A DNA stretch of 64,000 nt from Lepidurus packardi (taxonomy: Eukaryota; Arthropoda; Branchiopoda; Notostraca; Triopsidae): the NCBI GenBank assembly GCA_023053545.1, contig JAKZAN010000006.1, positions 11,229,412-11,293,411 on the forward strand. The letters are read 5' to 3'. The first letter of the stretch is position 1, and every line of letters starts with the position of its first letter. This document shows positions 42,441 to 62,288 of this stretch, one piece after another. The position numbers were made by a program, and so were the translations under genes. The notes below the pieces were generated by a model, which worked only from the letters and a program-made list of their open reading frames with translations, searched no databases and was not told the DNA's origin.

Positions 42441-42684
42441 TGCGTTAGAAAGTGACTGACAAGAAACTGGGGAGAAAACGACATCGGGTACTGCGGCCTC
42501 CCCTGAGCCACTCGTGTATACAGTTTTAGGAAAGGGGAGGACGGGTTAGGGGGGTCTGAGACCCCACGTCATTCGTGTCTGCCCTTCACCTTTCCTGAAA
42601 ACGCATAGTAAGCGAACTCAGACCGTTGTACGCGTTAGCAGTGTATTTCAATCTCGGGTAACAGCGGTGGTACCGAAGGTGAAT

Positions 42685-43242
42685 TTAGCAATCTCCGTCC
42701 TCCCGCGAGGTCCACATGTTGCGGACACGCTGGTATGCCACAAACTCCAATTTGACATCCAATTCTTCCAGCCGTTGGGTCAGGTTGGCCAGGCGGGCTT
42801 CCCACTGGTTTTCCAGCTCGCCCAAGGCCTGTTGAAGATCCTCTACCTGGCCCCGCCACTCTCCTCGCTCCTGCTGGGCCCTCCAGCGTTCTCCGATTAG
42901 GCAGGCCTCCAGCTGTTTGATTTTCTTGGCAGCGGCGGACGCCCTCCCCTGCATAGCGACCACCTGCGGTGCTCGAACCCACGCCGGTATCCTCGTCAAC
43001 TCCGGCATTCCTTCAAACCTGGAGTCCACCCCCGGGTCTGGGGAAGGTCCCCGAGCGCCCTGCTCCTGGCCTGCCGGACTGTTAGTTGGTAGCGGGGGGC
43101 TGCGGAGTTGGACTGGCTGGGGTGGTATCAACCACCCTAGTGGGGGTGGGGGTATCGTCAGGTCCTGCACCAGCCACTGCCCGCCTACCTGCACCGTTAC
43201 CGTGGTTGTTTTTTTTGACACTTTCCATGTTGTTCTTGTCAC
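42685..43242 (-). CDS. Gypsy D accessory ORF between pol and env, coiled coil
   Basis: 185 residues. The N-terminal half is rich in Pro; residues about 100-170 form a long heptad-like helix (RGQVEDLQQALGELENQWEARL, here split by position). No known domain was recognised. It lies where some errantiviruses have the pol-env junction and does not overlap either. Element E has a different coiled-coil ORF at the same place, suggesting that an oligomerising helper protein is a feature of this lineage. It could be a late product of the env RNA. Confidence 0.6.
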   Translation of the reverse strand: MTRTTWKVSKKTTTVTVQVGGQWLVQDLTIPPPPLGWLIPPQPVQLRSPPLPTNSPAGQEQGARGPSPDPGVDSRFEGMPELTRIPAWVRAPQVVAMQGRASAAAKKIKQLEACLIGERWRAQQERGEWRGQVEDLQQALGELENQWEARLANLTQRLEELDVKLEFVAYQRVRNMWTSREDGDC

Positions 43243-43428
43243 GTCAAGGAATGTGCTTAGAGTGATAGGACCTCCAACTATTAGCGAGCGATAGGGCTCA
43301 CCCCGGGGTTAGGGGAAGGCCGTGGGCGAGGCGACCCCGACTTGGAAAGGTGCCGGCACACTGGGGTGGGCGCGGCCGACTCCCCTTTTTCCCCAAGCGC
43401 CTCTCGCCTCTCCTCCTCCCTTCGTCCC

Positions 43429-46400
43429 TTAAACCTCACCTTCCACCTCCCCATCGAACCTGACTTTCCCCTTATTCCTTTGAGATCGTCGTAATCCCAC
43501 GGGCTCATCCGGGCGGGCACTATACGTTACACTCTCCGTAACGCGAGCCTCAGGCTCCGGAGGGTTTACGTTGTCAGCCTCGGTCGCTCGGTGGGTAAGC
43601 AAGTCAGCAGGTTCTATCGCCAACTCGCTAGCTTCACCCGATACCTCGAGTGTCCGATTGCGCACTTCGAGATCTCGCTCGTCTCCCAACTTGACGAACA
43701 AAGTTGGTTCGTCGAAGTCGTTAACTCTGTCTACAAAGGGTTTCAGGCGAGAAATGTGGACTATGTCGGATTTCCGTCTTTTGACCCCCTGAACCTCGTA
43801 ATCAACGGGAGACGTTCTACGGAGAATCTTATATGGGCCAAAGAAGCGATGGAGAAGTTTTTCCGACTTCCCCACTTTCCGAACCGGAGTATAAACCCAT
43901 ACAACGTCCCCTACATCATAGAAACGTTCCTCGCGAGATTCGTCATAACGTTCCTTTTGTTTTGCCTGAACTTTACCCAGGCGCTGTCTTACAACGCTAA
44001 AAGCTTTCGTTATACGACTGGCCATTTGACCCGCTCTGCTTATGTCAGCGGAGCCGTCCATCCCGTCTACCTCGGCAGAGGCCCCCATCGCCACATCGAG
44101 TGGGAGTTTTGGCTCCCTCCCGTAGAGGAGATAGAATGGGGAGTACCCGGTGGACTCCTGCCTCGCCGTATTGTACGCGAAGGTCACTGCGTCTAAACAA
44201 TCATCCCAATCGCGATGGTTGCTGCTTACGTACATCGAAAGCATGTCCGCTAGCGTGTGATTGAGACGCTCGGTTAAGCCGTTACATTGGGGATGGTAGG
44301 CCGTAGTCGTAGCGTGATTAGTTTGCATGACCCTAATCAGCTCCTCGGTAAACTCTGCTGTGAAGCAGGTACCTCTATCGCTTAACAAAGTCTCCGGTGC
44401 CCCATGTCTCAACACGAGTTGTTGCACGAAGAATTTGGCAACTTCCTCGGCCGAAGCTGATGGGACAGCCTTGGTCTCAGCCCACTTCGTTAGATAGTCG
44501 ACTGCTACAATAATGTGCTTGTTACCGCGCGGGGTCTCGGGGAACGCGCCAAGTAGATCAATCCCGACTTTCTCGAAAGGCCTGTCAACCTTGATCGGGA
44601 CCATTAGCCCTTTCTTTTTCGTCGCTTCTCCTTTCCGGGTTTGACAATCCGTACAGGAGGCGACGTAACGAGCTACTTCCGTGATCATTTTAGGCCAATA
44701 GTACCTTTTGCTGATCTTGTCCCAGGTTCTTTTGAGACCTAAATGACCAGCAGTGACGTCGTCATGACAGGCGTACAAAACCTCCCTTTTCAGAGAAGCA
44801 GGTACGCAGAGCCTTAGGCGACATTCGCCGTTTCTCACTAAAATCCGAAAAAGTTTTCCCTCCTTCATCGTGTATTGCACGACTTGGCGCCTCCGTACGG
44901 CCTGCGGATTAAGTGTTTCCAAGATGGCAATAAGCTTTGCCCATCTCGGATCTGAACGTTGTTCTTGTTCCACATCAGCTAAACGCTTATCAACTGCTTG
45001 GACACCAATCCCGAACACTACCGGGCCGTTGTCGTCGCCTTCTCCAGCTGGGGGGTCAACGGGGTTGCGTGACAGAGGGTCAGCATCATTATGAACCCTC
45101 CCACTCCGATGTACGATTTGAAACTCGTATTCCATCAGAGCGAGGGCCCACCTAGCTAACCGCCCTGTGGACTCCCGTTTGGTCATTAGCCAACACAATG
45201 CGTGATGGTCTGTGACAGCTTTGAAAGGTTTACCCCAAACATACGGCCTAAATTTCTTTACGGCCCATACGAGAGCTAAGCATTCTTTCTCGGTGGTGGA
45301 ATAATTCCGTTCACTTTTATTAAGGAGCCGGCTCGCATAAGCGATAACCCGCTCTTCGCCATCTTGGCGCTGTGCCAGAACCGCTCCTATGCCAAAATCA
45401 CATGCGTCAGGATGGATCTCAAATTCACCATCCAACTCTGGGTGAGCTAGAATAGGCGCCGAAACAAGAGCTTGCTTGAGGTCTTCAAAAGCAGACTGTT
45501 GCTCGACACCCCATGCAAATGGTGTATTTAATTTTGTAAGCCTGGAGAGAGGTTCGGCCCTAGCTGAAAAATCTTTCACGAATTTTCTGTAGTACGAGCA
45601 TAGGCTCGTGAAACTACGAACCGCCGTAAGATTTGCCGGCGTTGGAAAATCCGTGACGGCTGTTAATTTACCGTCATCCGGCCTAATACCCTCCCGGTCC
45701 ACTATGTGTCCAAGCACCTGAACAGTTTCGCAGCCAAAGCGACATTTGCTAGGTTTTAGCTTCAGCCCTGCTTTACCTAAGCATGCCAAAATGGCGTCAA
45801 CATCTACCACATGCTTCTCGAAAGTTTTGGAGAAAATTACCACATCGTCTAGATAGATTAGACAAATTTGCCACTTGAAACCTGCTAAGATAACGTCCAT
45901 CATCCTCTGAAAGGTGGCCGGTGCGTTACAAAGCCCAAATGGCATTTTCGTGAATTGGTATGGGCCATCCGGTGTTATGAATGCCGTTTTCTCCCTATCT
46001 TCCTCCTTTACTCCTACTTGCCAGTAACCTGACATGAGGTCTAAAGTGCTGAAGAATTTTGAACCTTGCATGGAGTCCAAGGCATCATCCGTCCTGGGCA
46101 AAGGATAAACGTCCTTGATCGTGACGGAATTTAGCCTCCGGTAGTCAACGCAAAAGCGCCAAGTACCGTCTTTCTTCTTTACCAAAACTACGGGGGAAGA
46201 CCATGGACTGCTTGATGGTTCTACCACCCCTGCCTCTATCATTTCTTCCACCTGCTGCCTAATCAGCTCTTTTTCCCTGTAGGCGCTCCGGTAGGGAACC
46301 TGCGAAACGGGATTTGCGTTACCCGTATCTATTCCGTGCTCTACCACGTTGGATGCACCTAAATCTTCTGAACCCCCGGCAAAGCACTGGCGATGCTTAC

Positions 46401-48519
46401 TTAGCACCTCTCTAAGCGCTTGCCTTTGATCATCGTCTAATCGATCAGAGATACAGCCATCCAGGGTCTCGTCAGTAACTACTCCTTCCTCTGCTTCCAC
46501 TACGTGGGGTACCTGGTCTTCGACACTGCCTAAAACTGTCCCCGCAGCCACCCATTGGGCCTCCGGACCAAAGTTTACTAGCATTACCGGACCGTACCCA
46601 CCCTGAAAGGTAGTTATGCTTCGACCTAAGCTGATCCCTTTTTCGATTAATAATCGCTTCTCGGGTTCTACCAGGAAATCCTGAGCTTCGTCTTCAGACG
46701 GCGGTGTTAGTTTACATTCGCCCCATTTGTCTGAACCCTGGTTCACAAGGTGGACATTAATGGGTATTCCCGATCGTGGGGGAATTTTGTGGGCCTGCAA
46801 GGAGGCTAACCTAAGCGGCCTACCTTGCTTCTTTTGACTTTTCCCTTTTGATGCCAGCAACAGGCAACTGAAAGGATTCTCTCTCTCGCTGGGATCGCTA
46901 GAGGTAGGATCAGCGATCTTACTAACGTCTATGTCACTGTCACTTCCGGCTTTTTCACTTGTCAGAGGAGGTCTACAGTTGGGACTTTCGCTATGGATTT
47001 CTGAAAGAATTTCGCAACAATCTGTGCCTCCGGGGTCCCATGCCTCGTCCTGACCTAGCTTTGCCTCGTGGCACTCTACATTCCCCACCGCAAGCTCGTG
47101 GGGATCCTCTCTCGCGGCAGAGCCAGTACTTTTGGTTTCGCCCTCGGTGGGGGTTAACGGGCGAACAGCGGAAAAATTCAAATTCGCGCCTTGGTTTACC
47201 GTTTTCGTGGGAGGGGCAACTAGCAGAGCTCCGTTGAGGGTCTCGTGGGGAGATCCCTGAAAAAGAAAAATGCACATGGAACGCAAGAAGGGTGGCACTA
47301 GAGAGAGGGGTGTAGAATGTCTTCCCCTCTCTTCTTGGTATTTAGCTACGAGAGACATAGATACGGGCAAGCTCTTTGTTACATCAGTATCTCGCCGTAT
47401 CTCCAGAGGGATTCCCCAACACCCTTTTTCAGTTCTTGCGCTCACACGCGCCTCACCAGGGGAGGTGATTTCCCGTTGTCCCTGGATCGCGCATACCACG
47501 GTGTTAAGCTCACTAGCTACATCCTGAATCTGCCTCACGAAGGTCAGGGCCTCCTCACAAACGGTATCGCGTGCACATTCCTCGTGGCGTATCTCGGGTT
47601 GCCCTGCGGGGGCTTCCCGTGGGGCACTCACGCCGTTAGCAAGGGCGTCAGTACATGGAGAGACTAGGGGCGCCACCTGTTGAGGAATTCTCGAACAGTC
47701 TGCAAGATCAGTTTGTGCTTGAAAATTTGAAACGGGTACTGTGGCAGGGCTTCCCCGCGGCAGGATCTCGGGATGCACAAGGCTTCTCTGAGTTTTCTTT
47801 GCCTTCCCTACCATCTGATCCTTCATTCTCCTATCTTGCTTTTCTGTTCGTTCCTCGTGGACTTCTACTATCCCAGTTATTTTATTTTCCTCGTTGGAAA
47901 GGATAATTGGCAGCTCCACTCGTCCCCGTACACTCGGCTTTCGATCGGCTCTAGTTTCCCTGGTTCCATCTAGCTCGGTGGCATTGAGCATTCCCACTAC
48001 CGTTTTGTCCTTGTTTTTAACCCTCCTTAGGCAACAGGTCGCCTGTGCAATTACGTTGCTAGCGCTATCTCCGATGTGCTCTTCCTCACTTTCCCGATGA
48101 CCTGCGAGGGTAAACCCATCATCCCTATATCGGAGGGTCACATCACCTAATTGCCTAAGCAAATCGTTGCCTATGATCAGTTCTGCCAAGCCGTTGTTAA
48201 AGACAACGGCTTTCGTGTATACCTCCTTCCCTGCGAGTCGAACCCCGATATTCACACCACCTCGAATCTGAGCACGCTCGCCGTTTGCTACAACTATCTC
48301 GGGTCCCTCCCAGGCTACCAGCTGCGCCGGGGTACTTAAGGCCCAATCTTCAGAAACTACGCTCACGGCCGCACCAGTGTCGATGATGGCTATCGTTTCG
48401 ACTCCATTACACACTACCTTTTCTCTGACGAGGTTGGGACAAAACACACATAAGAGGGGGATCTCAATGACCTGGGCGACTCCGCCCCCCGGAGCCGCCC
48501 TTTTTAGTTTTCCGAACAC
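43429..48519 (-). CDS. pol: Gypsy D pol polyprotein (1696 residues)
   Basis: One open frame. Aspartic protease near residue 47 (IIDTGAAVSVVSEDW). A long variable linker of about 600 residues, absent from most Gypsy elements, precedes the reverse transcriptase (WSSPVVLVKKKDG, YLDDVVIFSKTF near 886). RNase H: HPDACDFGIGAVLAQ and TEKECLALVWAVKKF. Integrase: HHCC (HDDVTAGHLG...CTDCQ near 1250), Asp in GIDLLGAFP, Asp in LLSDRGTCF, Glu in NGLTERLNHTL. The end has a GPYKILRR segment and an acidic tail. It overlaps the end of gag by 16 bases in the -1 frame. All catalytic residues are present, so this pol is a candidate active enzyme and could act for defective relatives E and F. Confidence 0.92.
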   Translation of the reverse strand: MFGKLKRAAPGGGVAQVIEIPLLCVFCPNLVREKVVCNGVETIAIIDTGAAVSVVSEDWALSTPAQLVAWEGPEIVVANGERAQIRGGVNIGVRLAGKEVYTKAVVFNNGLAELIIGNDLLRQLGDVTLRYRDDGFTLAGHRESEEEHIGDSASNVIAQATCCLRRVKNKDKTVVGMLNATELDGTRETRADRKPSVRGRVELPIILSNEENKITGIVEVHEERTEKQDRRMKDQMVGKAKKTQRSLVHPEILPRGSPATVPVSNFQAQTDLADCSRIPQQVAPLVSPCTDALANGVSAPREAPAGQPEIRHEECARDTVCEEALTFVRQIQDVASELNTVVCAIQGQREITSPGEARVSARTEKGCWGIPLEIRRDTDVTKSLPVSMSLVAKYQEERGRHSTPLSLVPPFLRSMCIFLFQGSPHETLNGALLVAPPTKTVNQGANLNFSAVRPLTPTEGETKSTGSAAREDPHELAVGNVECHEAKLGQDEAWDPGGTDCCEILSEIHSESPNCRPPLTSEKAGSDSDIDVSKIADPTSSDPSERENPFSCLLLASKGKSQKKQGRPLRLASLQAHKIPPRSGIPINVHLVNQGSDKWGECKLTPPSEDEAQDFLVEPEKRLLIEKGISLGRSITTFQGGYGPVMLVNFGPEAQWVAAGTVLGSVEDQVPHVVEAEEGVVTDETLDGCISDRLDDDQRQALREVLSKHRQCFAGGSEDLGASNVVEHGIDTGNANPVSQVPYRSAYREKELIRQQVEEMIEAGVVEPSSSPWSSPVVLVKKKDGTWRFCVDYRRLNSVTIKDVYPLPRTDDALDSMQGSKFFSTLDLMSGYWQVGVKEEDREKTAFITPDGPYQFTKMPFGLCNAPATFQRMMDVILAGFKWQICLIYLDDVVIFSKTFEKHVVDVDAILACLGKAGLKLKPSKCRFGCETVQVLGHIVDREGIRPDDGKLTAVTDFPTPANLTAVRSFTSLCSYYRKFVKDFSARAEPLSRLTKLNTPFAWGVEQQSAFEDLKQALVSAPILAHPELDGEFEIHPDACDFGIGAVLAQRQDGEERVIAYASRLLNKSERNYSTTEKECLALVWAVKKFRPYVWGKPFKAVTDHHALCWLMTKRESTGRLARWALALMEYEFQIVHRSGRVHNDADPLSRNPVDPPAGEGDDNGPVVFGIGVQAVDKRLADVEQEQRSDPRWAKLIAILETLNPQAVRRRQVVQYTMKEGKLFRILVRNGECRLRLCVPASLKREVLYACHDDVTAGHLGLKRTWDKISKRYYWPKMITEVARYVASCTDCQTRKGEATKKKGLMVPIKVDRPFEKVGIDLLGAFPETPRGNKHIIVAVDYLTKWAETKAVPSASAEEVAKFFVQQLVLRHGAPETLLSDRGTCFTAEFTEELIRVMQTNHATTTAYHPQCNGLTERLNHTLADMLSMYVSSNHRDWDDCLDAVTFAYNTARQESTGYSPFYLLYGREPKLPLDVAMGASAEVDGMDGSADISRAGQMASRITKAFSVVRQRLGKVQAKQKERYDESREERFYDVGDVVWVYTPVRKVGKSEKLLHRFFGPYKILRRTSPVDYEVQGVKRRKSDIVHISRLKPFVDRVNDFDEPTLFVKLGDERDLEVRNRTLEVSGEASELAIEPADLLTHRATEADNVNPPEPEARVTESVTYSARPDEPVGLRRSQRNKGKVRFDGEVEGEV

Positions 48520-49945
48520 GAATCTTCTCTATCGCTATCCGAGCGCCGTCCTGATGGTCTATCCACTCTCGACTTGCCACCCTTATCCCTGTTCTGAGAT
48601 TCTTTAGCCCCCTTTTCCTTCCCGCTTCCCTTGTGGTTTGGCCCACGTTCCGTGGACTCGGGATTGGCACAGTAACGTGCAATGTGCCCTGATTCCCTAC
48701 AGCGGTAACAAATAGGCTTCCCATCATGCGTGCGGGGATGGGGGGGATAGGGACGAGTTGGGGAATAAGGACGGCCAACCTTACCTGGCGGTTTCGCGAA
48801 ACTTTCGCGGAACTGCTGGAATTCACCGGCGAGTTTGCAGAGAGCCTCCGCAATGGCACTGGATTCCGATCCTGAGCTGGGTTTAGGATTTTCACGACCC
48901 GTTGGGGCAAAAGGGGTAAACGACCCTTGCCCTCGCACACCAACACCAGCCACCGCGGCACGTTTTTCGGCTTCTTCGCTACGGATCACGTTGGTCCACC
49001 AGGATTGAGAAACTCGGCTCCTTTCCTGGCTGAACTCAAGTAAGTTAGCCTCTTCAAGGAACTTGTCACACGTTTGCACGTTTAAGCGTGACAACGGCTC
49101 CACTAAACCAGGCCGTAGGCCTCGGAAGAGATGATTGAGTTTGTCATATTCGGACATGCCGGGATTAATCTCCCGGCACAGGTTGACTACGTCCATGTAA
49201 TACTCGTTGACACTCTCTTCCGAACGCTGCACCCGCATTTGCAACTTGGCGTTGCTGCGGAAAACTCGACCTTGGGGGACGAAAAACTTTCGGAATTCCT
49301 CTTTAAGTTCATTCCAGGAGGTAGGGGGTGGGCCATCAAGGGGGTACCGGTTGGCGTACCATGTATCGGCCATACCGTCCAGGCTCGTAGCCAAACACTC
49401 CAGTTTATCTTTCTCATTCCATCCATTAAAAATCGCCACCTCTCATATTTTTGGAGGAACCGCATAGCGTCCTCATCGTGAGCCCCAGAAAATCGTGGGG
49501 CACTCATCGCCTTACGCAACCTACCGGGCGCACCGGGGTTTGCCATGGTTGATGCAGGGCTGTTTGGCTCGGCGAGGAGGTCTACGAGTCTCACAACGGA
49601 TCCTCGCGGTGAAGGGGTGGTACGGCCGGCTTCAATAGTCGACCTTTCAATCGCCTCCAACTCTTCCCGTACCGCGGAGAACTGGTACCTCCTGCGAGGG
49701 GTTTCCGGGCTGGATTCCGGCTCGCTAGGAACGGCGTAGCAGGTGAGGTCTGGATCCGGATTCTGGGGGCGGTCGGCTTCGTCGTCTTCGGACGGGTCAG
49801 CTGAGCTCCACGGAAACTCTTGCGCTTCCAGAGTAGGTTTCCGTGGGCTCGAGGCAGCAATGGCTCGTTCGGCGCTTTTAGAGTGGAGCCACGAGGGAGT
49901 GACTGCTTCCTTCCGCTTTTCTCCGGGCTGACGGCGTACCGACAC
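48504..49945 (-). pseudogene. gag: Gypsy D gag, broken by a frameshift
   Basis: The upstream frame (49945-49187) has a charged, Ser/Pro-rich N terminus, then APRFSGAHDEDAMRFLQKYE, the start of a Ty3-type capsid. Near 49440 the frame changes and the capsid continues in a second frame (49439-48504): DKLECLATSLDGMADTWY, WNELKEEFRKFFVP, and one CCHC knuckle CYRCRESGHIARYC, ending in an acidic-basic tail. One base lesion separates the halves. Gag forms the particle, so this copy probably depends on another copy's Gag, unless the lesion is a sequencing error. An alternative upstream frame at 50070-49591 overlaps and is likely a shadow. Confidence 0.82.
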
Positions 49946-50142
49946 GGAACGGGCGAACGATGACTACCTTGGGGGCAACGTTGGGGCACCTGGGATTCGT
50001 GTACCCTGGCGATTCGGGCAAGGAACGCCTTTACCGATTCCCTCGGTCTTCGGGATCGCCCCAGTGTCACTCATGAAACCCCCAAGTCCTAGTTAGGTTC
50101 TAACACAAAACACGTAGCCTAACTTTACCAATCAAACCACCT

Positions 50143-50160
50143 TTCCCGGTCGATGCACCA
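50143..50160 (-). promoter_or_regulatory. Gypsy D primer binding site, tRNA-Gly-like
   Basis: The plus strand reads TTCCCGGTCGATGCACCA, which matches the 3' end of animal tRNA-Gly(GCC) plus CCA with one difference. It lies two bases from the 5' LTR. Confidence 0.7.
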
Positions 50161-50162
50161 AT

Positions 50163-50566
50163 TGTCACGTCTAAATCTGACAGGGCATCAAATCCGTCAG
50201 GAATTAGAGTGTTCGGGAAAGGTGGATTTACAGAACTGTATTTGGGAAAGTTACAGTGGTAAAGTTAAGAGGACGAAACACTACATGACAAACAGAGGAC
50301 TACTGCCTAACACCCTACTAGGAGAGTCTACCCTCTTACGCTCCCACTAACAGACTACCCTCCAGTACTGCCACTCTCTAACCAACTGACTTGGTTAAGT
50401 GGAAACATCATCCTCACTCTCAGGGATCCATCCTGCCTGGTGTATCCGTACAGGACGCGTAATCCGGTACACAGGCGGATGGATCCTCTGATGTTACGCT
50501 GATCTTAACTAAATAAGCAAAGCGAAGCGTGAGAAAAAGCAAGCAATGCGAAATACAGCCGTGACA
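50163..50566 (-). repeat. Gypsy D 5' LTR
   Basis: 404 bp; differs from the 3' LTR at one visible site (GGGAAAGTTAC versus GGGAAAATTAC). Confidence 0.93.
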
Positions 50567-51525: not shown

Positions 51526-51938
51526 TGTCACGGTCTAATTTTGCCAGGGCATCAATCTGGCAAGGGATTAGAGTAATGTTCGGGAAAGGTGGATTTATAG
51601 AACTGTATTTGGGAAAATTACAGTGGTAAAGTTAGGAGGACAAACACTACATGAAAAGCAGAGGACTAGCACATAAAACACGACTACTCTTCAGCACCTC
51701 AACGCTCGACCCTCTGTCTCCGTCTCTAATCAAGAACAATTTGCAAGGAAGCTTACTCCCCACCATTCGCCAAGCTGGGCATGCAATCCCACGCAGCTCC
51801 GGTGCTCCATCCGACACCATGTGCGTCAGCAGGATTGCAATTCAGCACATGGGGTCAGGGATCAACTTAGATTAGCAAAGATCAGCAAAGATTAGTAAAG
51901 CGTGAGAAAAGCAAGCAATGCGAAATGTAGCCGTGACA
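51526..51938 (-). repeat. LTR of D-family element F
   Basis: 413 bp, TGTCACGG...CCGTGACA, related to the LTRs of D and E and followed by the same purine tract (51939 onward). It is diverged from D in its middle part (ends CATGGGGTCAGGGATC...). Confidence 0.85.
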
Positions 51939-52093
51939 TTACCCCCGGCCCGCTTTCGAACGTCCCGGTCGAAACAAGAGGACCGCGCGTCTTCAGCACC
52001 ATCTAGGGCAATGCCAGGCTGAAATTAAAGGCAAGCTTGCAAGCACATGGTTAACATCCGGGCGCGCACACCTAATAATGAGTTAACCACCGT

Positions 52094-52855
52094 CTAAACA
52101 CCAGGGGGTTCTTCGGGGTAATTGGTACCGGGGAAAGAGAAGCACAACACTCCAGCTAGACTAGCTGTCTGACCCATTAGGCTTCTATTTCCGCCACGGT
52201 CACTTGGGATGGGGCTCCAGAGGCGCGCATCCTTACTTCGAGCGCTCGAACGCGCCGTACGAGCGTATCCATGTTGTAGTGGGGTTTCTCGAAGTTGGCT
52301 GGCCCATGGAGCCGTAAAGTTGCCTCTAATTGTTCTATGCATCTCTCGAGGGCTTGATTACGGTCACTGGTGATTCGCCATAGGAACTAGCTCAGGAGGG
52401 CGCCGATTACCAACACTATGGCTGTGAACGATCCTCGAAGATGTTTTTGCGCTGATCGGCGGCCTTCTGGAGCGCGTCCCAAGTCGTTCTCCAACTGGCG
52501 GCTACGTCACCACTCTCCTTCTCCAACGCTTTGATGTGATCGGCTATCTTCGGATCCGTCCAGGTAAGGTTGGCCGTGGGCAAATGTTGTCGGGTCAGGT
52601 TAATAGAAAAAGCGGGAAAGGACCAAGCAGGCATGCGTGAAGTGGTGGTTGATCGACCAAAAGAGTCCAAGGAGGCGGCTAAAATCCACTCTCGGCTGAT
52701 GGCCACACATGCAACAGGGACCTCAATAATCCCTATCCCCTGAATTTTGATGGTATTGGTCTTACCCTCCCTGTCCCCTTTTAGATTTGGGTGGCAAGCA
52801 TTCGTCACTACAATGGTCTTTCCGGTTGAGTACAACCATTTGCGGGGCCCTACCT
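52094..52855 (-). pseudogene. Element F env C-terminal remnant
   Basis: Minus-strand homology to D and E env from the VGPRKWLYSTGK segment (about 52855) to the C terminus. A deletion next to 52430 removes the membrane-proximal segment and part of the transmembrane region, and the frame is broken afterwards. The N-terminal two thirds, including the furin site, are absent. The protein could not act as a fusogen. Confidence 0.8.
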
Positions 52856-52933
52856 TCCATTTGTTTACTTAAGCTTGCCGAAACCAGAACGCCGTTGCTT
52901 CTCGTTAAACCCTCCTCCTTTCCTACACCTCGT
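52856..52933. other. Short unassigned filler at a rearrangement joint
   Basis: About 78 bp between the F env remnant and the inverted pol piece that matches neither. It may be filler DNA from the rearrangement. Confidence 0.4.
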
Positions 52934-53181
52934 CGCTTAGAGAGGTGCTAAGTAAGCATCGCCAGTGCTTTGCCGGGGGTTCAGAAGATTTAGGTGCATC
53001 CAACGTGGTAGAGCACGGAATAGATACGGGTAACGCAAATCCCGTTTCGCAGGTTCCCTACCGGAGCGCCTACAGGGAAAAAGAGCTGATTAGGCAGCAG
53101 GTGGAAGAAATGATAGAGGCAGGGGTGGTAGAACCATCAAGCGGTCCATGGTCTTCCCCCGTAGTTTTGGTAAAGAAGAAA
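52934..53181 (+). pseudogene. Inverted fragment of D-family pol
   Basis: Plus-strand, opposite to its neighbours. It encodes the start of the reverse transcriptase region (KHRQCFAGGSEDLG to WSSPVVLVKKK) with few differences from D. It stops where the 3' untranslated sequence of the first nucleoprotein-like gene begins (53182). Confidence 0.88.
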
Positions 53182-53214
53182 GAATTTTATTGGTTGTTGT
53201 AAGGGTGGATTAGC

Positions 53215-53319: not shown

Positions 53320-54699
53320 CTACGAAATATCTTTACTGTTAATGGTCTTTATTTCATCATCGTATGTTGCCGACGCACGTGCCTCAAGCGTTTCCCCTTC
53401 GGCTGACAACGCAGTTCTCTGTTCCAAGTATTTATCTATCAAGTTCTTGATGATGGTTTTCTGCCACCCCAGGTCGTTAAGCTCCATGAAAGTACGAGAA
53501 TCAGTTAACGACGTTTTTCCAAGGACTTGGATGCAAATCATTGAGCCTACTTTTGCCAGTTTCGGAAATTTTGTGGCTGCCACCTCATTCCTCTCACGCA
53601 TTGTTCCGAATCCACCGTACGGGTCAGTTTTCGTATTAGGGAGTGTTAATTTCCCTAGCACAGATATAAACGCCGCCCATTCATCGGGAAACAAACCGTT
53701 AACTTTCTTCCATGGGAAATCTTTTACTCCTTTCATAGCTTCTACCAATGTGATAAGACTCGTCATCCCAAAGAACTTGCATTGGTTTACAAGGTTCCTA
53801 AGGCCTAAAATTTCGGGAGGAGATGATTTAACTAACTCCTCGATAACATCCCGCATATACATACGGGACTTACCTTGTCCGGTGTGGGCGAAAATGGTGG
53901 AAAAAACGGTAGGGTCAGCTGGCCAAGGGATATCAGATCGGGTAAGGTTACATTGTGCCACATACTTGTCAAATTTTCTACGGTTAGAAGACCCTGAGTA
54001 AATCAAGGAATACCATAAATAAAAAGTCGACGGTTTAACCCATAAAATCCGAGTTACGCGCTGATGCGCAGTCGAAGTTATTGTAAATACTGTAATATGA
54101 TTGAGAATTTCAGGCAGAGGAATGAGAGCAGCTAATACAGCATCTAGATCCGCATAAACGCCACAGTTTAGAGCTATATCCGAATTGGGAGGTGTTCGAT
54201 CGGCATCAGATTTTTTCGAATTGTTTAAGATCATGAGCGCCAGATCGGACGAGATACTAGTAGGAATCACTTTGCCATTCAAAGCTCGAGCGCCGTTCTT
54301 AATCGCATTGAACATTTTCATGATGTATGTTTGGGCTTCGATTTCGGCAAGGTAAACCATTCTATCAAAATGGACAGGGCCAGTATGTTCATAGTACCAA
54401 GCTACCGCCAGCTCGGCTTCTAACGGGGTTGCACCATATGTATATACGCAATTTAGCCAGGTATAGAAGGCTAACGCTAACGTTTGGTACAAAGTGTCCA
54501 TTTTGGTAAATGCAGGGACACCGAGGTGGTAAAGTGCAAAAGGAGTCTGAATCGCCTCCCCTACTATCATTCTTCTTAGATGCAAGGCTTTGGTCACTTG
54601 AACTGTGGCCCAGCGACCGGGAGTATAACCAGTTTCGTCCGGAGTTATCTCTTCTACTGACTCATTTCCAGATTTTAATTCTTCGATATCAGCCATCAT
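53320..54699 (-). CDS. Endogenous viral nucleoprotein-like gene, copy N1 (459 residues)
   Basis: A single intact frame with no introns, mostly alpha-helical in composition, no signal peptide. Landmarks: DETGYTPGRWATVQ near residue 19, TWLNCVYTYGATPLEAEL, KPSTFYLWYSLIYSGSSNRR, PPEILGLRNLVNQCKFFG, GLFPDEWAAF and GGFGTMRERNEVAATKFPKL. Size and overall pattern resemble nucleoproteins of non-segmented negative-strand RNA viruses (Mononegavirales or Jingchuvirales); such proteins coat viral RNA. I recognise this by resemblance only and cannot name the family. The start at 54699 has a Met-Met pair. Upstream lies a 61-bp leader, then the LTR of element E; downstream the untranslated region (53319-53182) ends in an AATAAA-containing joint to inverted pol. 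Copy N2 is similar in protein but clearly diverged in DNA. Confidence 0.5.
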   Translation of the reverse strand: MMADIEELKSGNESVEEITPDETGYTPGRWATVQVTKALHLRRMIVGEAIQTPFALYHLGVPAFTKMDTLYQTLALAFYTWLNCVYTYGATPLEAELAVAWYYEHTGPVHFDRMVYLAEIEAQTYIMKMFNAIKNGARALNGKVIPTSISSDLALMILNNSKKSDADRTPPNSDIALNCGVYADLDAVLAALIPLPEILNHITVFTITSTAHQRVTRILWVKPSTFYLWYSLIYSGSSNRRKFDKYVAQCNLTRSDIPWPADPTVFSTIFAHTGQGKSRMYMRDVIEELVKSSPPEILGLRNLVNQCKFFGMTSLITLVEAMKGVKDFPWKKVNGLFPDEWAAFISVLGKLTLPNTKTDPYGGFGTMRERNEVAATKFPKLAKVGSMICIQVLGKTSLTDSRTFMELNDLGWQKTIIKNLIDKYLEQRTALSAEGETLEARASATYDDEIKTINSKDIS

Positions 54700-54760: not shown

Positions 54761-55245
54761 TGTCACGTCTAAATCCGACAGGGCATCAAATCCGTCAGGA
54801 ATTAGAGTAATGTTCGGGAAAGGTGGATTTATAGAACTGTATTCGGGAAGATTACAGTGGTAAAGTTAAGAGGGACTATTTGTACAGAGAACAGGGGACT
54901 AGGACATAACAACACTACTCAAGACTCTACCCTTCGACTCTCTCTGACCCCCACTCTAGACTAACTAAACTCTTCTTGGCACAATTCGCCAAAGCTGAGC
55001 ATGCAATCCCACGTAGCTCCGGTGCTCTATCCGACACCATGTGCGTCAGCAGGATTGCAATTCGGCACATGGGGTCAGGGATCACCGAAGCTCCGTGCTA
55101 ACTAAGCTGCGAAGTTTAGCGAAAAGCGACACCATGTAGGTAACCCAGTACATGGGGTCAGGGATCAGCTTAGCTCTGGGCTAAGTTGGCTGCAAAGATT
55201 AGCAAAGCGTGAGAAAAACAAGCAATGCGAAATATAACCGTGACA
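54761..55245 (-). repeat. Element E 3' LTR, with internal duplication
   Basis: 485 bp, TGTCACG...CGTGACA. Longer than the D LTR because a segment with ACACCATGT and ACATGGGGTCAGGGATCA occurs twice (about 55036-55085 and 55128-55170). The polypurine tract is at 55246-55264. Confidence 0.85.
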
Positions 55246-55554: not shown

Positions 55555-57579
55555 TTAAACACTAGCCTCTTCTAGGGCTACAGGGAAAGCGCCTCCATGG
55601 GCCCGCGCCTTCGCTTCGAGCACATGAACACGTCGTAAGAGCGTATCCAGATTGTAACTTGGTCGTTCAAACGCGGCGGGCCCCTGGAGGCGTAATGCGG
55701 ACTCCAGGTGCTCGACGCGTACCTGGAGGGCGTGGTCACGCCCGGTGGTGGCCCGCCACAGGAACCAGCTCAGGAGGGCACCGATTACTAACACTAGGGC
55801 TGTGAACGATCCCGAGATGGTGATTGTGGGATAGTTGATGTGATCCCACTCATCGGGGGTCCCCTTGAAGATGTTTTTGCGCTGCTCGCCGGCCTTCTGG
55901 AACGCGTCCCAAGTCGTTCTCCAACTGGCGGCTATGTCACCACTCTCCTTCTCTAGCGTCTTGATGTGGTCGGCTATTTTTGGATCCAACCAGGTAAGGT
56001 TGGCCGTGGGCAGATGTTGTTGGGTCAGGTTAATGGACAAAGCGGAAAGGGACCAAGCAGGCATGCGTGAAGTGAGGTTTGACTGCCCGAAAGAGTCCAA
56101 GGAGGCGGCCAAAATCCACTCTGGGCTGATGGCCAAGCATGCAACAGGTACCTCGATGATTCCTATCCCCTGGATTTTTATAGTTTTGGTCTTCCCTTCC
56201 CCATTCCCTTTTAGGTTTGGGTGGCAAGCAATTGTCACTCCAATGGCCTTACCGGTTGAGTACAACCATTTACGGGGCCCCACCCGGACCAAGGATGAAG
56301 CATCCGCCTTCCTAACCTCTTTTCGGCAAAACCGCTCCGTCTGGTTAGCCTCGTCTTTCATTAGGGCGGCCATACAGGAAGGTCCCGTAGCTGTTCGTCT
56401 GAACTCCCGGACTAGGGTGCATACCTTGATCTCGTAGGCCTTGCACGAGTCGATTTCGACCTGACTTAGTTCCACGTACATCTCTCTATCCCCGGAAACG
56501 GCCAAGTACTCGGGTAGGTCTAAGATTTCGCTCACGAAACTGCTATCAGGTATTGGGACGGGTACATGCAGAACGCGGAATAATTTAAGGTGGTACTGCG
56601 ATTCATACAAGGGGACCTCGATAAATAATCGTAACTTCCCTTGGTAGGCAGCGGAGTGGACGCGACACCGTTGGTAGATCGCCCAGAGACCACCCAGGTC
56701 TCCCACCGCGATCCCCACCCACCCCTTTGGCAAGGCGGCGTTAATTTTTACTAAAATCTCGGCAAAGTCAGTAGGGGGGACTAATAAGGGGGACAGCACC
56801 CCCGCTGCGGCGGCCACCATGCCATCGCTTAATGCGTTCAGATACGACTCGGCCCACGCAAGGGCCCCCTGTATGGCCCTTTCCCATATGTCGATGTGAA
56901 TGTCGAAGAGCCATGCTTCGTGATTATCCCTAAACTGAGCTCTCACTACTTCCTGGGAAAGCCGGAGTCCCGCCTCCAGTCCTTGGTAACCTTGGCTAAG
57001 CTTCTGCAGGATCTCGAAGTTCTTTTGGGTTCTCCAAAAAGTGCTGTTAATTAGGGTTGCCTGGTCGGTCACTAGGTGGCTCACAAGGTCTTCCTTTTTA
57101 TTTATTTCGGTTAGCCGGCGGTTAATGACCTCGAGGTCCCCATGCGAGGCTGTCCCGAAAAGCCATTTCAGCGCCTCGCCCCCGGCATCTATAAGGCCTC
57201 TCTTGTTACGTCCCGTAGCCGGATTACTGGTCAACCGCTCTAGCGCTACTGACCGGAGTTGGAGTTCAGTCAGGTGCTTGCGGTAACTTTCTATATCCCT
57301 CTGGACTCGGGTGTGCAAGTCGTGCATAACCCCTTGGTTATGGGTGAATTGGTCTGCATAACGTCTCTCGATCCATAGGGCCTCGCCAGTTTTCACCAGC
57401 AGCTGGTTCAGCGGGTTTGGATCTACATCGGTGACCATGACCCACCTCGCTCCCGCGAAGATGACCTGGCCCTCATCTACAAAGTAGACGCCCTCGTGCA
57501 CTCCTCCGTCCTGCACTGCGCCTAGAACGCCCCCGCAGAGGGGCAACACGAATAGCACCATCCACCAGATCACGCGCAT
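55555..57579 (-). CDS. env: Element E envelope glycoprotein, baculovirus F-like
   Basis: Same architecture as D env: signal peptide (MRVIWWMVLFVLPLCGG), furin-type site RNKR before GLIDAGGEALKWLFGT, and a transmembrane segment (FTALVLVIGALLSWFLW). I place the start at 57579, matching D; the frame is open to an earlier Met at 57669 but that region lies before the likely splice acceptor. Most of the protein is nearly identical to D, whereas the last 100 residues, including membrane span and tail, differ clearly. This abrupt change suggests recombination between two lineages. The frame is intact even though the element is otherwise defective. Confidence 0.87.
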   Translation of the reverse strand: MRVIWWMVLFVLPLCGGVLGAVQDGGVHEGVYFVDEGQVIFAGARWVMVTDVDPNPLNQLLVKTGEALWIERRYADQFTHNQGVMHDLHTRVQRDIESYRKHLTELQLRSVALERLTSNPATGRNKRGLIDAGGEALKWLFGTASHGDLEVINRRLTEINKKEDLVSHLVTDQATLINSTFWRTQKNFEILQKLSQGYQGLEAGLRLSQEVVRAQFRDNHEAWLFDIHIDIWERAIQGALAWAESYLNALSDGMVAAAAGVLSPLLVPPTDFAEILVKINAALPKGWVGIAVGDLGGLWAIYQRCRVHSAAYQGKLRLFIEVPLYESQYHLKLFRVLHVPVPIPDSSFVSEILDLPEYLAVSGDREMYVELSQVEIDSCKAYEIKVCTLVREFRRTATGPSCMAALMKDEANQTERFCRKEVRKADASSLVRVGPRKWLYSTGKAIGVTIACHPNLKGNGEGKTKTIKIQGIGIIEVPVACLAISPEWILAASLDSFGQSNLTSRMPAWSLSALSINLTQQHLPTANLTWLDPKIADHIKTLEKESGDIAASWRTTWDAFQKAGEQRKNIFKGTPDEWDHINYPTITISGSFTALVLVIGALLSWFLWRATTGRDHALQVRVEHLESALRLQGPAAFERPSYNLDTLLRRVHVLEAKARAHGGAFPVALEEASV

Positions 57580-57721
57580 ACCTGTGTGTTGAAAATTTGC
57601 GTTAGAAAGTGACTGGCAAGAAACTGGGGAGAAAACGACATCGTGTAACTGCGGCTTCCCCTGAGCCACTCGTGTATTTTTGATACAGTTTTTAGGGAAG
57701 GGGAGGACGGGTTAGGGGGGT

Positions 57722-58006
57722 CTAAGACCCCACGTCATCTTCGGGCTGACTCCTCCTCCAGCAGCACCCTAGTACGGTCCTTACCACCCGTCGGCTCCTC
57801 TCAAGCCGTGCGACCCTGGCTTCCCGCGACGCCAACTGCCCCATCACTCGGCGGGCAATCTCAACAACTTGGGCAAGTTCGCTACTGGCCGCCCCATCTC
57901 GCGAAGCTTGACTCACCCCTAGACGGTCCAGAGCCTCCTGAACGGCTTCGAGCCGGGCCTCGGCGCGTCGCCAAGTCTCCTGGAGGGTTTCCTCCATCTC
58001 CCCCAA
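57722..58006 (-). CDS. Element E accessory coiled-coil ORF, truncated by the N2 insert
   Basis: 94 residues of mostly heptad-like helix (TLQETWRRAEARLEAVQEAL) ending CCWRRSQPEDDVGS. The first Met lies directly beside the poly(A) of the inserted sequence (58012-58038), so the native N terminus is lost. It occupies the same place as the D accessory ORF but I see no convincing sequence similarity. Confidence 0.55.
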   Translation of the reverse strand: MGEMEETLQETWRRAEARLEAVQEALDRLGVSQASRDGAASSELAQVVEIARRVMGQLASREARVARLERSRRVVRTVLGCCWRRSQPEDDVGS

Positions 58007-58011
58007 CCTTG

Positions 58012-58038
58012 TTTTTTTTTTTTTTTTTTTTTTTTTTT
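58012..58038 (-). other. Poly(A) tract ending the captured nucleoprotein transcript
   Basis: 27 T on the plus strand, thus 27 A on the minus strand, right after the downstream sequence of N2. It marks the 3' end of a polyadenylated RNA copied into DNA. Confidence 0.85.
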
Positions 58039-58047
58039 GGATTTAAA

Positions 58048-58092
58048 CTACTGATCGTCGTCCTCGTGATCGGGATTGTAAAGATGAGCCAT
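58048..58092 (-). CDS. Very short ORF between N2 and its poly(A)
   Basis: ATG at 58092, 14 codons (MAHLYNPDHEDDDQ) and TAG. It could be the start of a second viral gene cut short, or a chance frame. It shows that the captured RNA extends about 165 bases past the N2 stop. Confidence 0.25.
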   Translation of the reverse strand: MAHLYNPDHEDDDQ

Positions 58093-58146
58093 AACCGCGT
58101 TTTTAACTAAAGGAAATTTTATTGGTGGTTGTAAGGGTGGATTAGC

Positions 58147-58161
58147 ACCTGCCTAACAGGT
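58147..58161 (-). promoter_or_regulatory. Conserved small hairpin downstream of N2
   Basis: ACCTG-CCTAA-CAGGT, matching the N1 hairpin in the stem but not in the loop. Confidence 0.4.
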
Positions 58162-58215
58162 TCCCGTAGGTTCTTTTACCCCCATTACATAGTTCTCTCA
58201 CCTTATTTTAACCCC

Positions 58216-59538
58216 TCATGAAATATCCTTTCCATCAACACTGATCATCTCGTCATTGTAAGTCAGTGATGCACGTGCGTCGAGCGTGTCACCGTCTGCA
58301 GCTAGTGCGGCTCGGTGTTCCAAATACTTATCGATTAAATTCTGAACGATTGTCCTTTGCCACCCAATATCATTGAAATCCATGAAAGTCCTTGATTCCG
58401 CCAGGGATGATTTACCCAGAATTTTGATACAAACCATTGATCCCACCTTCGCCAATTTTGGGAACTTGGTCGCAGCTACCTCATTTCGCTCCCTCATTGT
58501 ACCGAAGCCCCCATAAGGATCAATCTTGTTATCAGGAAGAGTTAGCTTGTCAAGGACGACCATAAATGATGCCCATTCATCTGGAAACAGTCCATTAATT
58601 TTCTTCCAGGGAAAATCTCGGACACCTTTCATGGCCTCCAATAAGGTTATCACACTTGTCATTCCAAAGAACTTACACTGGTTCACCAGATTCCTCAGCC
58701 CGAGAATTTCAGGTGGTGATGATCTAATTAGTTCTTCTATAGCATCACGCATGTAGAGTCTTGATTTTCCCTGACCAGTATGAGCGTAAATGGTTGAAAA
58801 TACAGTGGGATCAGCAGGCCATGGAATGTCCGCCCTCGTGAGGTTACACTGGGATACGTATTTGTCGAATTTTTTACGATTGGAAGAGCCTGAATAAATC
58901 AGTGCGTACCACAGGTAGAAGGTGGATGGTTTCACCCACAGTATTTTCGTTATACGTTGATGAGCCGTGGATGTTATAGTAAACACTGTGATGTGGTTCA
59001 ATATTTCAGCAAGAGGGATAGCTGTTCCCAGCACGGCATCTATATCAGCATAGGTTCCACAGTCTAGGGCTAAATCAGAGTCAGGGGGAGTCCTTTCCGC
59101 TGCAGATTTGCAGGAGTTATTGAGGATCATTAATGCCAGGTCAGAGGAGATGTTAGTCGGGATGGTTTTTCCGTTAAGTGCTCTGACTCCGTTCTTTATG
59201 GCATTGAACATCTTAGTGATATATTCACGAGCTGCTGCTTGTGACAAATACACCATTCGGTCGTAGTGAACAGGCCCGGTGTGCTCATAGAACCAGGCTA
59301 CAGCAAGTTCTGCCTCAAGAGGGGATGCCCCATATGTATACACACAGTTAAGCCATGTATAGAATGCCAACGCAAGAGTCTGGTACAACGTTGTCATCTC
59401 CGTAAAATCATCAAGACCAAGATGGTAGAGCGCAGATGGTGTTTGAATAGCTTCTCCAACTATCATTCGTCGAAAATGTTGCGCCTTAGTGATCTGTACA
59501 GTTGCCCAACGCCCGGGCGTGTACCCTGTTTCATCCAC
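58216..59538 (-). CDS. Endogenous viral nucleoprotein-like gene, copy N2 (440 residues)
   Basis: Intact frame from its first Met to the TGA, collinear with N1 from DETGYTPGRWATVQ to the KDIS end. The two proteins are alike through almost every segment (KPSTFYLWYALIYSGSSNRK, GLFPDEWASF, GGFGTMRERNEVAATKFPKL), while the DNA differs at many third positions. The first 18 or so residues of N1 are missing here: the frame is open 5' of the Met for a few codons and then joins D-family pol sequence near 59552. Downstream are shared untranslated sequence, the short ORF at 58092 and the poly(A). As for N1, assignment to a negative-strand RNA virus is by resemblance. The intact frame suggests a recent capture or selection in the host. 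Confidence 0.5.
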   Translation of the reverse strand: MDETGYTPGRWATVQITKAQHFRRMIVGEAIQTPSALYHLGLDDFTEMTTLYQTLALAFYTWLNCVYTYGASPLEAELAVAWFYEHTGPVHYDRMVYLSQAAAREYITKMFNAIKNGVRALNGKTIPTNISSDLALMILNNSCKSAAERTPPDSDLALDCGTYADIDAVLGTAIPLAEILNHITVFTITSTAHQRITKILWVKPSTFYLWYALIYSGSSNRKKFDKYVSQCNLTRADIPWPADPTVFSTIYAHTGQGKSRLYMRDAIEELIRSSPPEILGLRNLVNQCKFFGMTSVITLLEAMKGVRDFPWKKINGLFPDEWASFMVVLDKLTLPDNKIDPYGGFGTMRERNEVAATKFPKLAKVGSMVCIKILGKSSLAESRTFMDFNDIGWQRTIVQNLIDKYLEHRAALAADGDTLDARASLTYNDEMISVDGKDIS

Positions 59539-59552
59539 TTCTACGCCCTCTC

Positions 59553-62288
59553 GTTCATCGTGTATTGGGCGACTTTACGTTTTTCTGTAGCTTTTGGGTT
59601 AACTGTCTCCAAGATGGTGATAAGCCTTTCCCATCTGGGATCTACCCGTTGCTCTTTTTCAACATCAGCTAAAAGTGTGTCAACTGCGTGAACAGCAATC
59701 CCAAACACTACCGGGCCGTTGTCGTCGCCTTCTCCAGCTGGGGGGTCAACGGGGTTGCGTGACAGAGGGTCAGCATCATTATGAACCCTCCCACTCCGAT
59801 GTACGATTTGAAACTCGTATTCCATCAGAGCGAGGGCCCACCTAGCTAACCGCCCTGTGGACTCCCGTTTGGTCATTAGCCAACACAATGCGTGATGGTC
59901 TGTGACAGCTTTAAAAGGTTTACCCCAAACATACGGCCTAAATTTCTTTACGGCCCATACGAGAGCTAAGCATTATTTCTCGGTGGTGGAATAATTCCGT
60001 TCACTTTTATTAAGGAGCCGGCTCGCATAAGCGATAACCCGCTCTTCGCCCTCTTGGCGCTGTGCCAGAACCGCTCCTATGCCAAAATCACATGCGTCAG
60101 GATGGATCTCAAATTCACCATCCAACTCTGGGTGAGCTAGAATAGGCGCCGAAACAAGAGCTTGCTTGAGGTCTTCAAAAGCAGACTGTTGCTCGACACC
60201 CCATGCAAATGGTGTATTTAATTTTGTAAGCCTGGAGAGAGGTTCGGCCCTAGCTGAAAAATCTTTCACGAATTTTCTGTAGTACGAGCATAGGCTCGTG
60301 AAACTACGAACCGCCGTAAGATTTGCCGGCGTTGGAAAGTCCGTGACGGCTGTTAATTTACTGTCATCCGGCCTAATACCCTCCTGGTCCACTATGTGCC
60401 CAAGCACCTGAACAGTTTCGCAGCCAAAGTGACATTTGCTGGGTTTTAACTTCAGTCCTGCTTTACCTAGACATGCCAAAATGGCGTCAACATCGGCCAC
60501 ATGCTTCTCGAAGGTTTTGGAGAAAATAACGACATCATCAAGGTAGATTAGACAAATTTGCCACTTAAAACCTGCTAAAATAACGTCCATCATCCTTTGA
60601 AAGGTGGCTGGAGCGTTACAAAGCCCAAATGGCATTTTCGTAAACTGGTATAGACCATCCGGTGTTATAAATGCCGTTTTCTCCCTGTCTTGGTCCTTTA
60701 CTCCTACTTGCCAATAACCTGACATAAGGTCCAAGGTGCTGAAAAATTTCGAACCTTGCATGGAGTCCAATGCGTCATCCGTCCTGGGCAAGGGATAAAC
60801 GTCCTTGATCGTGACGGAATTTAGCTTACGATAATCTACGCAAAAGCGCCAACTACCGTCTTTCTTCTTGACCAACACAACGGGGGAGGACCATGGACTG
60901 TTTGATGGTTCTACCACCCCTGCTTCTATCATCTCCTCCACCTGCTGCCTAATCAGCTCTTTTTCCCTGTAGGCGCTGCGGTAGGGAACCTGCGAAACGG
61001 GATTTGCGTTACCCGTATCTATTCCATGTTCTACCACGTTGGACGCACCTAGATCCTCTGAACCCCTTGCAAAGCACATGCGATGCTTACTCAGCACTTC
61101 TCTCAGCGCTTTCCTTTGATTATCGTCTAATCGATCAGATATACAGCTATCCAGGGTCTCGTCAGTAACTGCTCCTTTCTCTACTTCAACTATGTGGGGT
61201 ACCTGGTCTTCAACACTGCCTAAAACTGTCCCCGCAGCCACCCATTGGGCCTCCGGACTAAAGTTTACAAGCATTACCAGACCGTACCCACCCTGAAAGG
61301 TAGTTATGCTTCGACCTAAGCTAATCCCTTTTTCGATTAATAATCGCTTCTCGGGTTCTACTAGGAAATCTTGAGCTTCGTCTTTAGACGGCGGTGTTAG
61401 TTTACGCTCGCTCCATTTGTCTGAACCCTGGTTCGCAAGGTTGACGTGAATGGGCATTCCCGATCGCGGGGGAATTTTGTGGGCCTGCAAGGAGACTAAC
61501 CTAAGCGGCCTACCTTGCTTCTTTTGACTTTTTCCTTTCGTGGCCAGCAACAGGCAACTAAAAGGATTATCGATCTCGCTGACCGTGTCACGGTCGTTTC
61601 CAGCTTTCTCGGTTGTCAGGATAGGTTTACACTCGGGACTTTCTTTATGGATTTCTAAGGGAACTTCACAACAATCTGCGCCTCCTGGGTCCCATGACTC
61701 GTCCTGACCTAGCTTTGCCTCGTGGCACTCTACATTCCCCACCGCAAGCTCGTGGGGATCCTCTTTCTCGGTAGAACCAGTGCTTTTGGTTTCGCCCTCG
61801 GCGGATGTTAACACGGAACTAGTGGGAAAATTCGAATTCGCGCCTTGGTTTCCCGTTTTCGTGGGAGGGGCAACTAGCAGAGCTCCGTTGACTGCCTCGC
61901 GGGGAGATCCCTGGAAAAGAAAAATGCACATGGAACGCAAGAAGGGTGGCACTAGAGAGAGAGGTGTAGAATGTCTTCCCCTCTCTTCTTGGTATTTAGC
62001 TACTAGAGACATAGATACGGGTAAGCTCTCCGTTACATCAGTATCTCGCCGTATCTCCAGAGGAATGCCCCAACTACCTTTATCAGTGCTCGCGCCCATA
62101 CGCGCCTCACTAGGGGAGGTGATTTCCCGTTGTTCCTTTATCGCGCATACCACGGTGTTAAGCTCGCTAGCTACATCCTGAATCTGCCTAACGAAGGTCA
62201 GGGCCTCCTCACAAACGGTATCGCGTGCAAATTCCTCGTGGCGTATCTCAGCTTGCCCTGCGGGGGTTTCCCGTGGGGCACTCATGCC
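59553..62288 (-). pseudogene. pol: Element E pol, truncated at both ends
   Basis: Closely matches D pol from the linker (SAPRETPAGQAEIRHEE, 62288) through reverse transcriptase (YLDDVVIFSKTF) and RNase H to KVAQYTMNE, just before the integrase. One in-frame TAA at 59975-59973 replaces the Glu of TEKECLALVWA in RNase H. A 64-base-scale gap in the linker relative to D lies near 61590. Protease and integrase are absent, so it cannot act alone. Confidence 0.9.

Follow-up and report, generated by a model that had tools for sequence, protein, structure and literature searches.

A poly(A)-tailed gene of likely viral source joined to an env-bearing Gypsy element in Lepidurus packardi

The N2 insert in Gypsy element E

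The DNA analyzed here, called the window, is a stretch of 64,000 nucleotides (nt) from Lepidurus packardi (assembly GCA_023053545.1, contig JAKZAN010000006.1, positions 11,229,412 to 11,293,411), and our subject is element E, a Gypsy long terminal repeat (LTR) retrotransposon with an env gene, in which a poly(A)-tailed copy of a gene, N2, is inserted. On the minus strand E reads, in order, pol (62288-59550), N2, poly(A), a stretch of 272 nt, env and LTR. The pol part upstream of the insert (59550..62288, minus strand), whose reverse transcriptase (RT) and RNaseH part was identified by domain search, is 91% identical to that of a second element, D, and in pol and env the two elements are 91-92% identical. 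Element D (39746..50566, minus strand) serves as the insert-free reference for E. Its reading frames, domains and LTR comparison give LTR, gag-like frames, pol, accessory frame, env and LTR, with ATAT on both sides, and its RT, RNaseH, integrase, Baculo_F match (4.2e-18) and LTRs with ATAT identify it as an errantivirus-like Gypsy element with a baculovirus-F env. Positions are given in window coordinates throughout and other loci as contig:position (contigs C2, C3, C5, C16 and C26).

The insert without its tail covers 58039-59549 after correction of its boundary. As judged by the reading frame, relatives and codon comparison, its coding sequence lies at 58216..59549 on the minus strand, truncated at the 5' end and open up to its own stop, and the open frame runs uninterrupted over 58216-59574. 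Some 20 codons at the start and the 5' untranslated region (UTR), both present in N1, a relative in the same window, are missing from N2. A conserved 3' UTR block (58112..58194, minus strand) stands behind the coding sequence, and the first 35 nt of the 3' extension are similar to the 5' UTR of this gene (ACAACMACCMATAA.. to TTAAAAACG) and are followed by a short frame of 14 codons (58048-58092); by motif and shuffle tests this whole part (58048..58132, minus strand) resembles the beginning of a following gene. The poly(A) then occupies 58012..58038 on the minus strand, with 27 nt by run count. In 202,794 bases examined there are ten A or T runs of at least 21 nt, seven of which stand at 3' ends of this gene's copies. 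A preliminary description of the window had taken the insert for a copied messenger RNA (mRNA) from its lack of introns, missing 5' end, extra 3' sequence and 27-nt poly(A), and all of these features were recovered.

At the 5' joint between pol and N2 (59541..59560, minus strand, compared among loci), homology to D stops at 59550 (D 44860), which is about residue 1222 of D pol, and the H2C2 integrase domain starts from residue 1242; the junction is therefore just before the integrase, as had been described. After the insert, homology to D restarts at 57738. No counterpart of D 42573-44859, the integrase and accessory region, exists in E, and the insert stands in its place, which bears out the loss of pol between the joints. 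The longest string common to both flanks has 6 nt and was equalled in 261 of 500 shuffles, hence no target duplication is visible, in line with the original reading. The claim that D-family sequence follows the poly(A) needs amendment: it holds for env and beyond, from 57738 on, and fails for the 272 nt at 57739..58010 (minus strand), which match nothing in D. This stretch contains a frame of 91 amino acids (57722-57997) and is complete only beside N2, with seven matches in the genome, five at N2 copies and two covering just its last 33 nt; the genome here and below is the 108.6-Mb assembly of 344 contigs, searched by tblastn and DNA searches. No close insert-free parent of E was found.

Regarding expression, N2 is probably not translated well, because the pol frame stops at the joint, N2 reads in a different frame, and the first ATG in its open frame is residue 37. 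With its own start codon absent, N2 is probably a passenger of the element. The remaining parts of E are an env of baculovirus-F type (55555..57711, minus strand; a 718-residue open frame, Baculo_F 3.3e-19) and an LTR recognized by sequence comparison (54761..55245, minus strand) with a presumed polypurine tract CGGGGGTAA before it. In pol, an in-frame stop near 59970 is shared by the window copy and the inverted duplicate of it and absent from the copy at C3:2880 kb (the copy at C2:6129 kb is not covered there).

Twelve copies in five lineages

The insert is not single: the 17 tblastn matches of the gene in the assembly correspond to 12 copies by 3' UTR (12/12 DNA matches), which fall into five lineages, and all 12 adjoin Gypsy sequence. 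According to tblastn, lineage N1 has its copy in the window (53323..54699, minus strand), N1' lies antisense within Gypsy pol at C2:890 kb, and the other three are in sense orientation with their elements, namely N2 with five copies (the window, C5:11.31 Mb, C3:2880 kb, C2:6129 kb and C3:2832 kb), N3 with four copies arrayed in tandem on C26, and N4, whose two halves lie 5.3 kb apart at C3:2224-2232 kb. In N2 and N4 a poly(A), A27 and A21 respectively, is enclosed within the element, and N3 has a T-run instead.

The pol/N2 5' joint is identical at four loci and the 3' joint between poly(A) and accessory sequence at five, on three contigs and with private differences, while the A-runs at the 3' joints vary from 23 to 27 nt with small differences alongside. 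The copy at C5:11.31 Mb is an inverted segmental duplicate with 1,625 nt of common flank at 99.94% identity. The copy at C2:6129 kb has flank in common with the C5 copy, a D-like env (97.7%) and an LTR/ATAT end like other copies; from this env and this end, the N2 module also recombined between element backgrounds. We make no claim that the N2 chimera spread by retrotransposition, in view of the segmental duplicate, the flank which the C2:6129 kb copy has in common with C5, and the fact that no two-ended copy was seen. The element ends observed are LTR/ATAT at C2:6129 kb and ATAT/LTR in the N3 unit on C26, and among the copies none shows both. The C26 array (C26:4868-17.5 kb) consists of four tandem units of about 3126 bp, each with LTR, N3, env end and LTR, and its first LTR joins, at ATAT, a sequence read by eye as hAT-like.

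The N1 copy, assigned by tblastn and alignment, is of full length and lies 16 nt plus its own 5' UTR behind the LTR of E, so that LTR-driven expression of N1 is possible. Its end is joined to an antisense pol fragment of 250 bp (52934..53183, plus strand), and the unit is closed by an env 3' fragment and LTR (51526..52868, minus strand) followed by ATAT like other copies, both assigned by comparison with D. Derivation of this antisense pol from the insertion at C2:890 kb was ruled out, as the parts of D pol concerned are 2110-2359 and 1227-1269.

The lineages differ greatly at silent positions. Between N1/N1', N2, N3 and N4, synonymous differences per site (dS) amount to 0.84-0.91, which means saturation, with nonsynonymous differences (dN) of 0.09-0.14 (370-459 codons per pair, with codon 1 of N1' and the 14 columns surrounding the N3 frame break excluded); for N1 against N1', dS is 0.305, dN 0.016 and dN/dS 0.054. 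Identity at third codon positions is 35-41% between the diverged lineages, and the two halves of the gene counted apart give the same picture (0.34-0.40). With synonymous sites at saturation and dN still around 0.1, the sequences indicate that the lineages diverged under strong constraint elsewhere before capture and were captured separately.

In contrast to the third positions, the 3' UTR block, found in the window at 58112-58194 and 53180-53262, is nearly invariant. Alignment of the five lineages shows 70 nt at 91-97% identity, with 63 of 70 columns invariant, and all 12 genome matches of this block are copies of the gene. A branched fold is predicted for it with covariation nearly nil (1 of 21 pairs), and an Rfam search of window 53150-53400 gave nothing at the gathering score.

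A second conserved feature is a motif at the gene borders. The N1 and N4 copies start at ACAACAACCCATAA, and a near-identical motif occurs after the coding region in 12 of 12 copies; N2 extends beyond the usual place of the poly(A), and there the motif leads on to the remainder of the 5' UTR and a further ATG. With no more than one mismatch, all 14 genome matches of the motif are at copies of this gene; with two mismatches there are three matches, all elsewhere, and a reversed control pattern has seven. The 3' extension of N2 scored against the 5' UTRs of N4 and N1 above all 5000 shuffles in each comparison. Repeated gene-start regions and gene-border read-through occur in nonsegmented negative-strand viruses, and the repeat seen here reads like both by analogy. 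The repeat at the presumed next gene is present and is assigned to no known virus signal.

N4 and a rhabdovirus gene in other Gypsy elements

The clearest view of a capture is offered by N4, for which an insert-free relative at C16 is the reference. The N4 gag belongs to a second Gypsy family, with ten near-full-length matches at 96-100% including its own, and relatives of its env piece are spaced correspondingly from gag, one pair being C16:1731726 (gag) and C16:1738048 (env). The family to which this env belongs is a remote F-type: matches at 25% include some of these loci, the N4 env piece matches E env at E = 1.5e-5, and a Pfam search of the piece gave no Baculo_F match. The C16 copy lacks the insert but has one stop in env; it is a relative of the N4 element, and not proven as its live parent. 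Over 109 of 109 nt the N4 chimera equals this relative through ACAACAACC, which is also the start of the captured complementary DNA (cDNA), giving a 9-nt microhomology at the 5' joint. At the 3' joint the A21 tail runs into an A6 tract that the relative has immediately ahead of env. What N4 lacks between its two joints is about 5.1 kb of the relative, with the gag end and RT (a 400-residue open stretch, read by eye). Such microhomology measured against an insert-free relative was shown for N4 alone; together with the replaced pol, these joints carry the sequence signature of template switching. In addition, the gag frame of N4 continues into the 5' UTR that was captured, and its stop precedes the start codon of N4 by two bases (TGACGATG; L012 1537-1540), a layout which could allow reinitiation.

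The genome also contains rhabdovirus sequences, with 17 matches of Pfam Rhabdo_ncap and two of rhabdovirus L, a 437-residue piece of the latter matching the L structure of vesicular stomatitis virus (VSV) at 2.7e-152. One rhabdovirus N, at C3:2833 kb, has a 438-residue frame from ATG to stop (Rhabdo_ncap 1e-78) with nucleoprotein structure matches down to 5.9e-65, which we take to be VSV nucleoprotein. It stands behind a gag-like frame (34% identical to N4 gag, without a Pfam match) and a protease match below the cut-off, and before an LTR. A relative at C2:1594 kb matches the Gypsy part at 133 of 134 nt, and this identity breaks off 90 nt before AACAGATATC, which fits the vesiculovirus mRNA start AACAGNNATC; the 3' joint seems to be inside the LTR. 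By these sequences, a viral nucleoprotein gene has entered a Gypsy element in this genome.

Three further observations belong here. The LTR element with the gag-like frame, weak protease match and complete rhabdovirus N spans C3:2832.4-2836.9 kb (L030 4402-8878), and its LTR borders directly on the N2 part of the chimera at C3:2832 kb. Tandem rhabdovirus N-like frames with a period of 1652 bp lie at C2:856-871 kb, about 20 kb from the N1' insertion. The L relics are at C2:10941881 and C2:10949544, the latter with an open stretch of 820 residues, beside an opposite-strand frame read as Gypsy integrase.

Origin of the chimeras

We consider it probable that a viral mRNA was captured by template switching during Gypsy reverse transcription. 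A polyadenylated viral mRNA and Gypsy RNA would have been present together where reverse transcription occurred, and may have met in a virus-like particle. During minus-strand synthesis the RT would exit the Gypsy template upstream of env onto the viral poly(A) tail, copy nearly the whole mRNA and then re-enter Gypsy RNA within pol via a short similarity, a switch that would drop the integrase and accessory region. The source virus would most likely be a nonsegmented negative-strand RNA virus, one that the databases searched do not contain. The switching step itself is well supported, best of all by N4 with its insert-free relative; and at the 5' joint of N2 a short ATGAAnGAG, similar to both pol and N2, is compatible with the same process. 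The preference for template switching over insertion by a long interspersed nuclear element (LINE) at N2, voiced in the preliminary description, is upheld.

The same description had called N2 an RNA-virus-like nucleoprotein transcript and said that the whole would be a retrotransposon-RNA virus chimera. The chimera is real and a viral source of the gene family is likely, on the indirect grounds of saturated synonymous divergence, the border motif repeat and the failure to find another source locus; nucleoprotein identity of the N2 protein is supported by no search, and its RNA-virus identity is unproven. The N2 and N1 proteins matched no Pfam family, no PDB sequence, nothing in a database of 5.8 billion proteins and nothing in IMG/VR, and N2 showed no detectable homology to rhabdovirus N by profile or by sequence; nor did Pfam and the further searches place the frame in a host or retrotransposon family. 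The 3' UTR patterns had 5 and 2 matches in IMG/VR, about the rough chance estimate. Two structure models of the protein were of low quality (mean predicted local distance difference test, pLDDT, 37 and 34), and the first, compared with viral folds, gave no hit at E<=0.001.

Several points weigh against the proposed viral capture. Its viral origin is indirect, the protein being without a homolog in any search. The 70-nt conserved 3' UTR block is longer than the gene borders of negative-strand viruses, and the post-gene motif compared with the 5' UTR of its own copy is weaker, 5 of 5000 (N4) and 85 of 5000 (N1) shuffles reaching the score. N3 ends in a T-run instead of a poly(A). For N2, the 3' joint has no known insert-free parent and the loss of Gypsy sequence is judged only against D at 91% identity, and the rhabdovirus N at C3:2833 kb has 90 unexplained nt where it meets Gypsy on the 5' side and lacks a clear poly(A). 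Moreover, AATAAA stands 15-19 nt before the tails of N1' and N4, the normal distance, as in host-processed mRNA, and a nuclear DNA virus or host transcript could be the origin of this layout.

These last facts would fit a switch of templates with the mRNA coming from a host gene or nuclear DNA virus and not from an RNA virus. The lack of any viral homolog in the searches agrees with it, and host-gene capture by LTR elements is established, according to a review (PMC5408686). However, all copies adjoin Gypsy sequence and no source gene for the family was found in the assembly by tblastn or the 3' UTR DNA search; saturated synonymous divergence among four lineages would require several ancient host paralogs; and a gene-start-like motif is repeated after the gene. 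We hold such a source to be possible and rather unlikely.

Less probable still is that the mRNA entered Gypsy DNA by target priming, in the LINE manner, and that one duplicate and the integrase region were lost afterwards. The same gene was so inserted at C2:890 kb, where N1' is antisense in Gypsy pol with a 42-43-nt duplication and A39, all of which mark it as a LINE-type insertion by sequence and as an internal contrast to the template-switch copies; a LINE-like element with endonuclease and RT domains is also in the window at 30774-33946. By comparison, the duplication is absent at N2, N3 and N4, these three are all in sense with their elements, and N4 has microhomology at both joints and 5.1 kb including RT missing between them.

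That a single old capture was followed by spread and divergence of the gene within Gypsy, as five N2 copies with common joints and the tandem LTR-N3-env end-LTR units at C26 might suggest, is very improbable, given that the five lineages have five different joint pairs in two Gypsy families with no joint seen in common, and that synonymous sites are saturated, yet the Gypsy sequences flanking N1 and N2 copies mostly have 82-99% identity. Finally, an assembly artefact is hardly credible even in these repeat-rich, partly duplicated regions, because the N2 joints recur at the four to five loci given above, with private differences.

Capture of viral RNA by LTR elements has precedents. In eBxnv-1, a nodavirus polymerase gene lies in a Bel/Pao LTR element of a nematode (Cotton et al. 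2016, PMC5177903). As here, a non-retroviral RNA-virus gene is inside an LTR retrotransposon, and the authors speculate on copy-choice recombination in reverse transcription; unlike here, the case is a single copy from a positive-strand virus, and poly(A) and microhomology are undescribed in the available text, whereas we see several captures, Gypsy elements with env and, for one capture, an insert-free relative. Anakin, a chuvirus glycoprotein captured by mosquito Pao elements (Dezordi et al. 2020, PMC7642597), is likewise a negative-strand virus gene taken up by an LTR element and copied further, but it is a glycoprotein from likely one or few events with some copies likely autonomous, as far as that source is available; here the gene is of unknown family, the events are several, and no autonomous chimera was seen. 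In LTR-mediated retroposition of host mRNAs, template switching at microsimilarities joins mRNA to LTR-element cDNA (Tan et al. 2016, as reviewed in PMC5408686), the same joining with a cellular source there and a probably viral one here. In Aedes, rhabdovirus-like insertions near Ty3/Gypsy led to the suggestion of template switching (PMC5497376); that association is one of flanks, and here the joints are resolved. Among the open-licence papers searched, none came to light that describes nucleoprotein capture by a Gypsy element with env and with its joints resolved. On the available text of these papers, captures of this kind are known, and the present case exceeds prior ones in its recurrence, its two separable entry routes and its insert-free relative.

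A more general view, which we offer tentatively and regard as doubtful, is that Gypsy elements with env repeatedly trap viral messages of one class, with at least four captures (N2, N3, N4 and rhabdovirus N) from at least two viruses into three Gypsy families, each of all or most of a (nucleo)protein mRNA. Uptake or switching may be helped by the conserved 3' UTR with its predicted fold, and N1, if driven by the LTR, may act as an antiviral or decoy protein. The entry of non-retroviral viral genes into animal genomes has largely been inferred from their association with LTR elements. What this genome adds is a gene family of virus-like character whose 3' UTR is strikingly conserved and of which the databases searched have no member; for this one family in one genome two routes, template switching and LINE-type insertion, are separable at base level, and the mechanism of entry thereby becomes testable.

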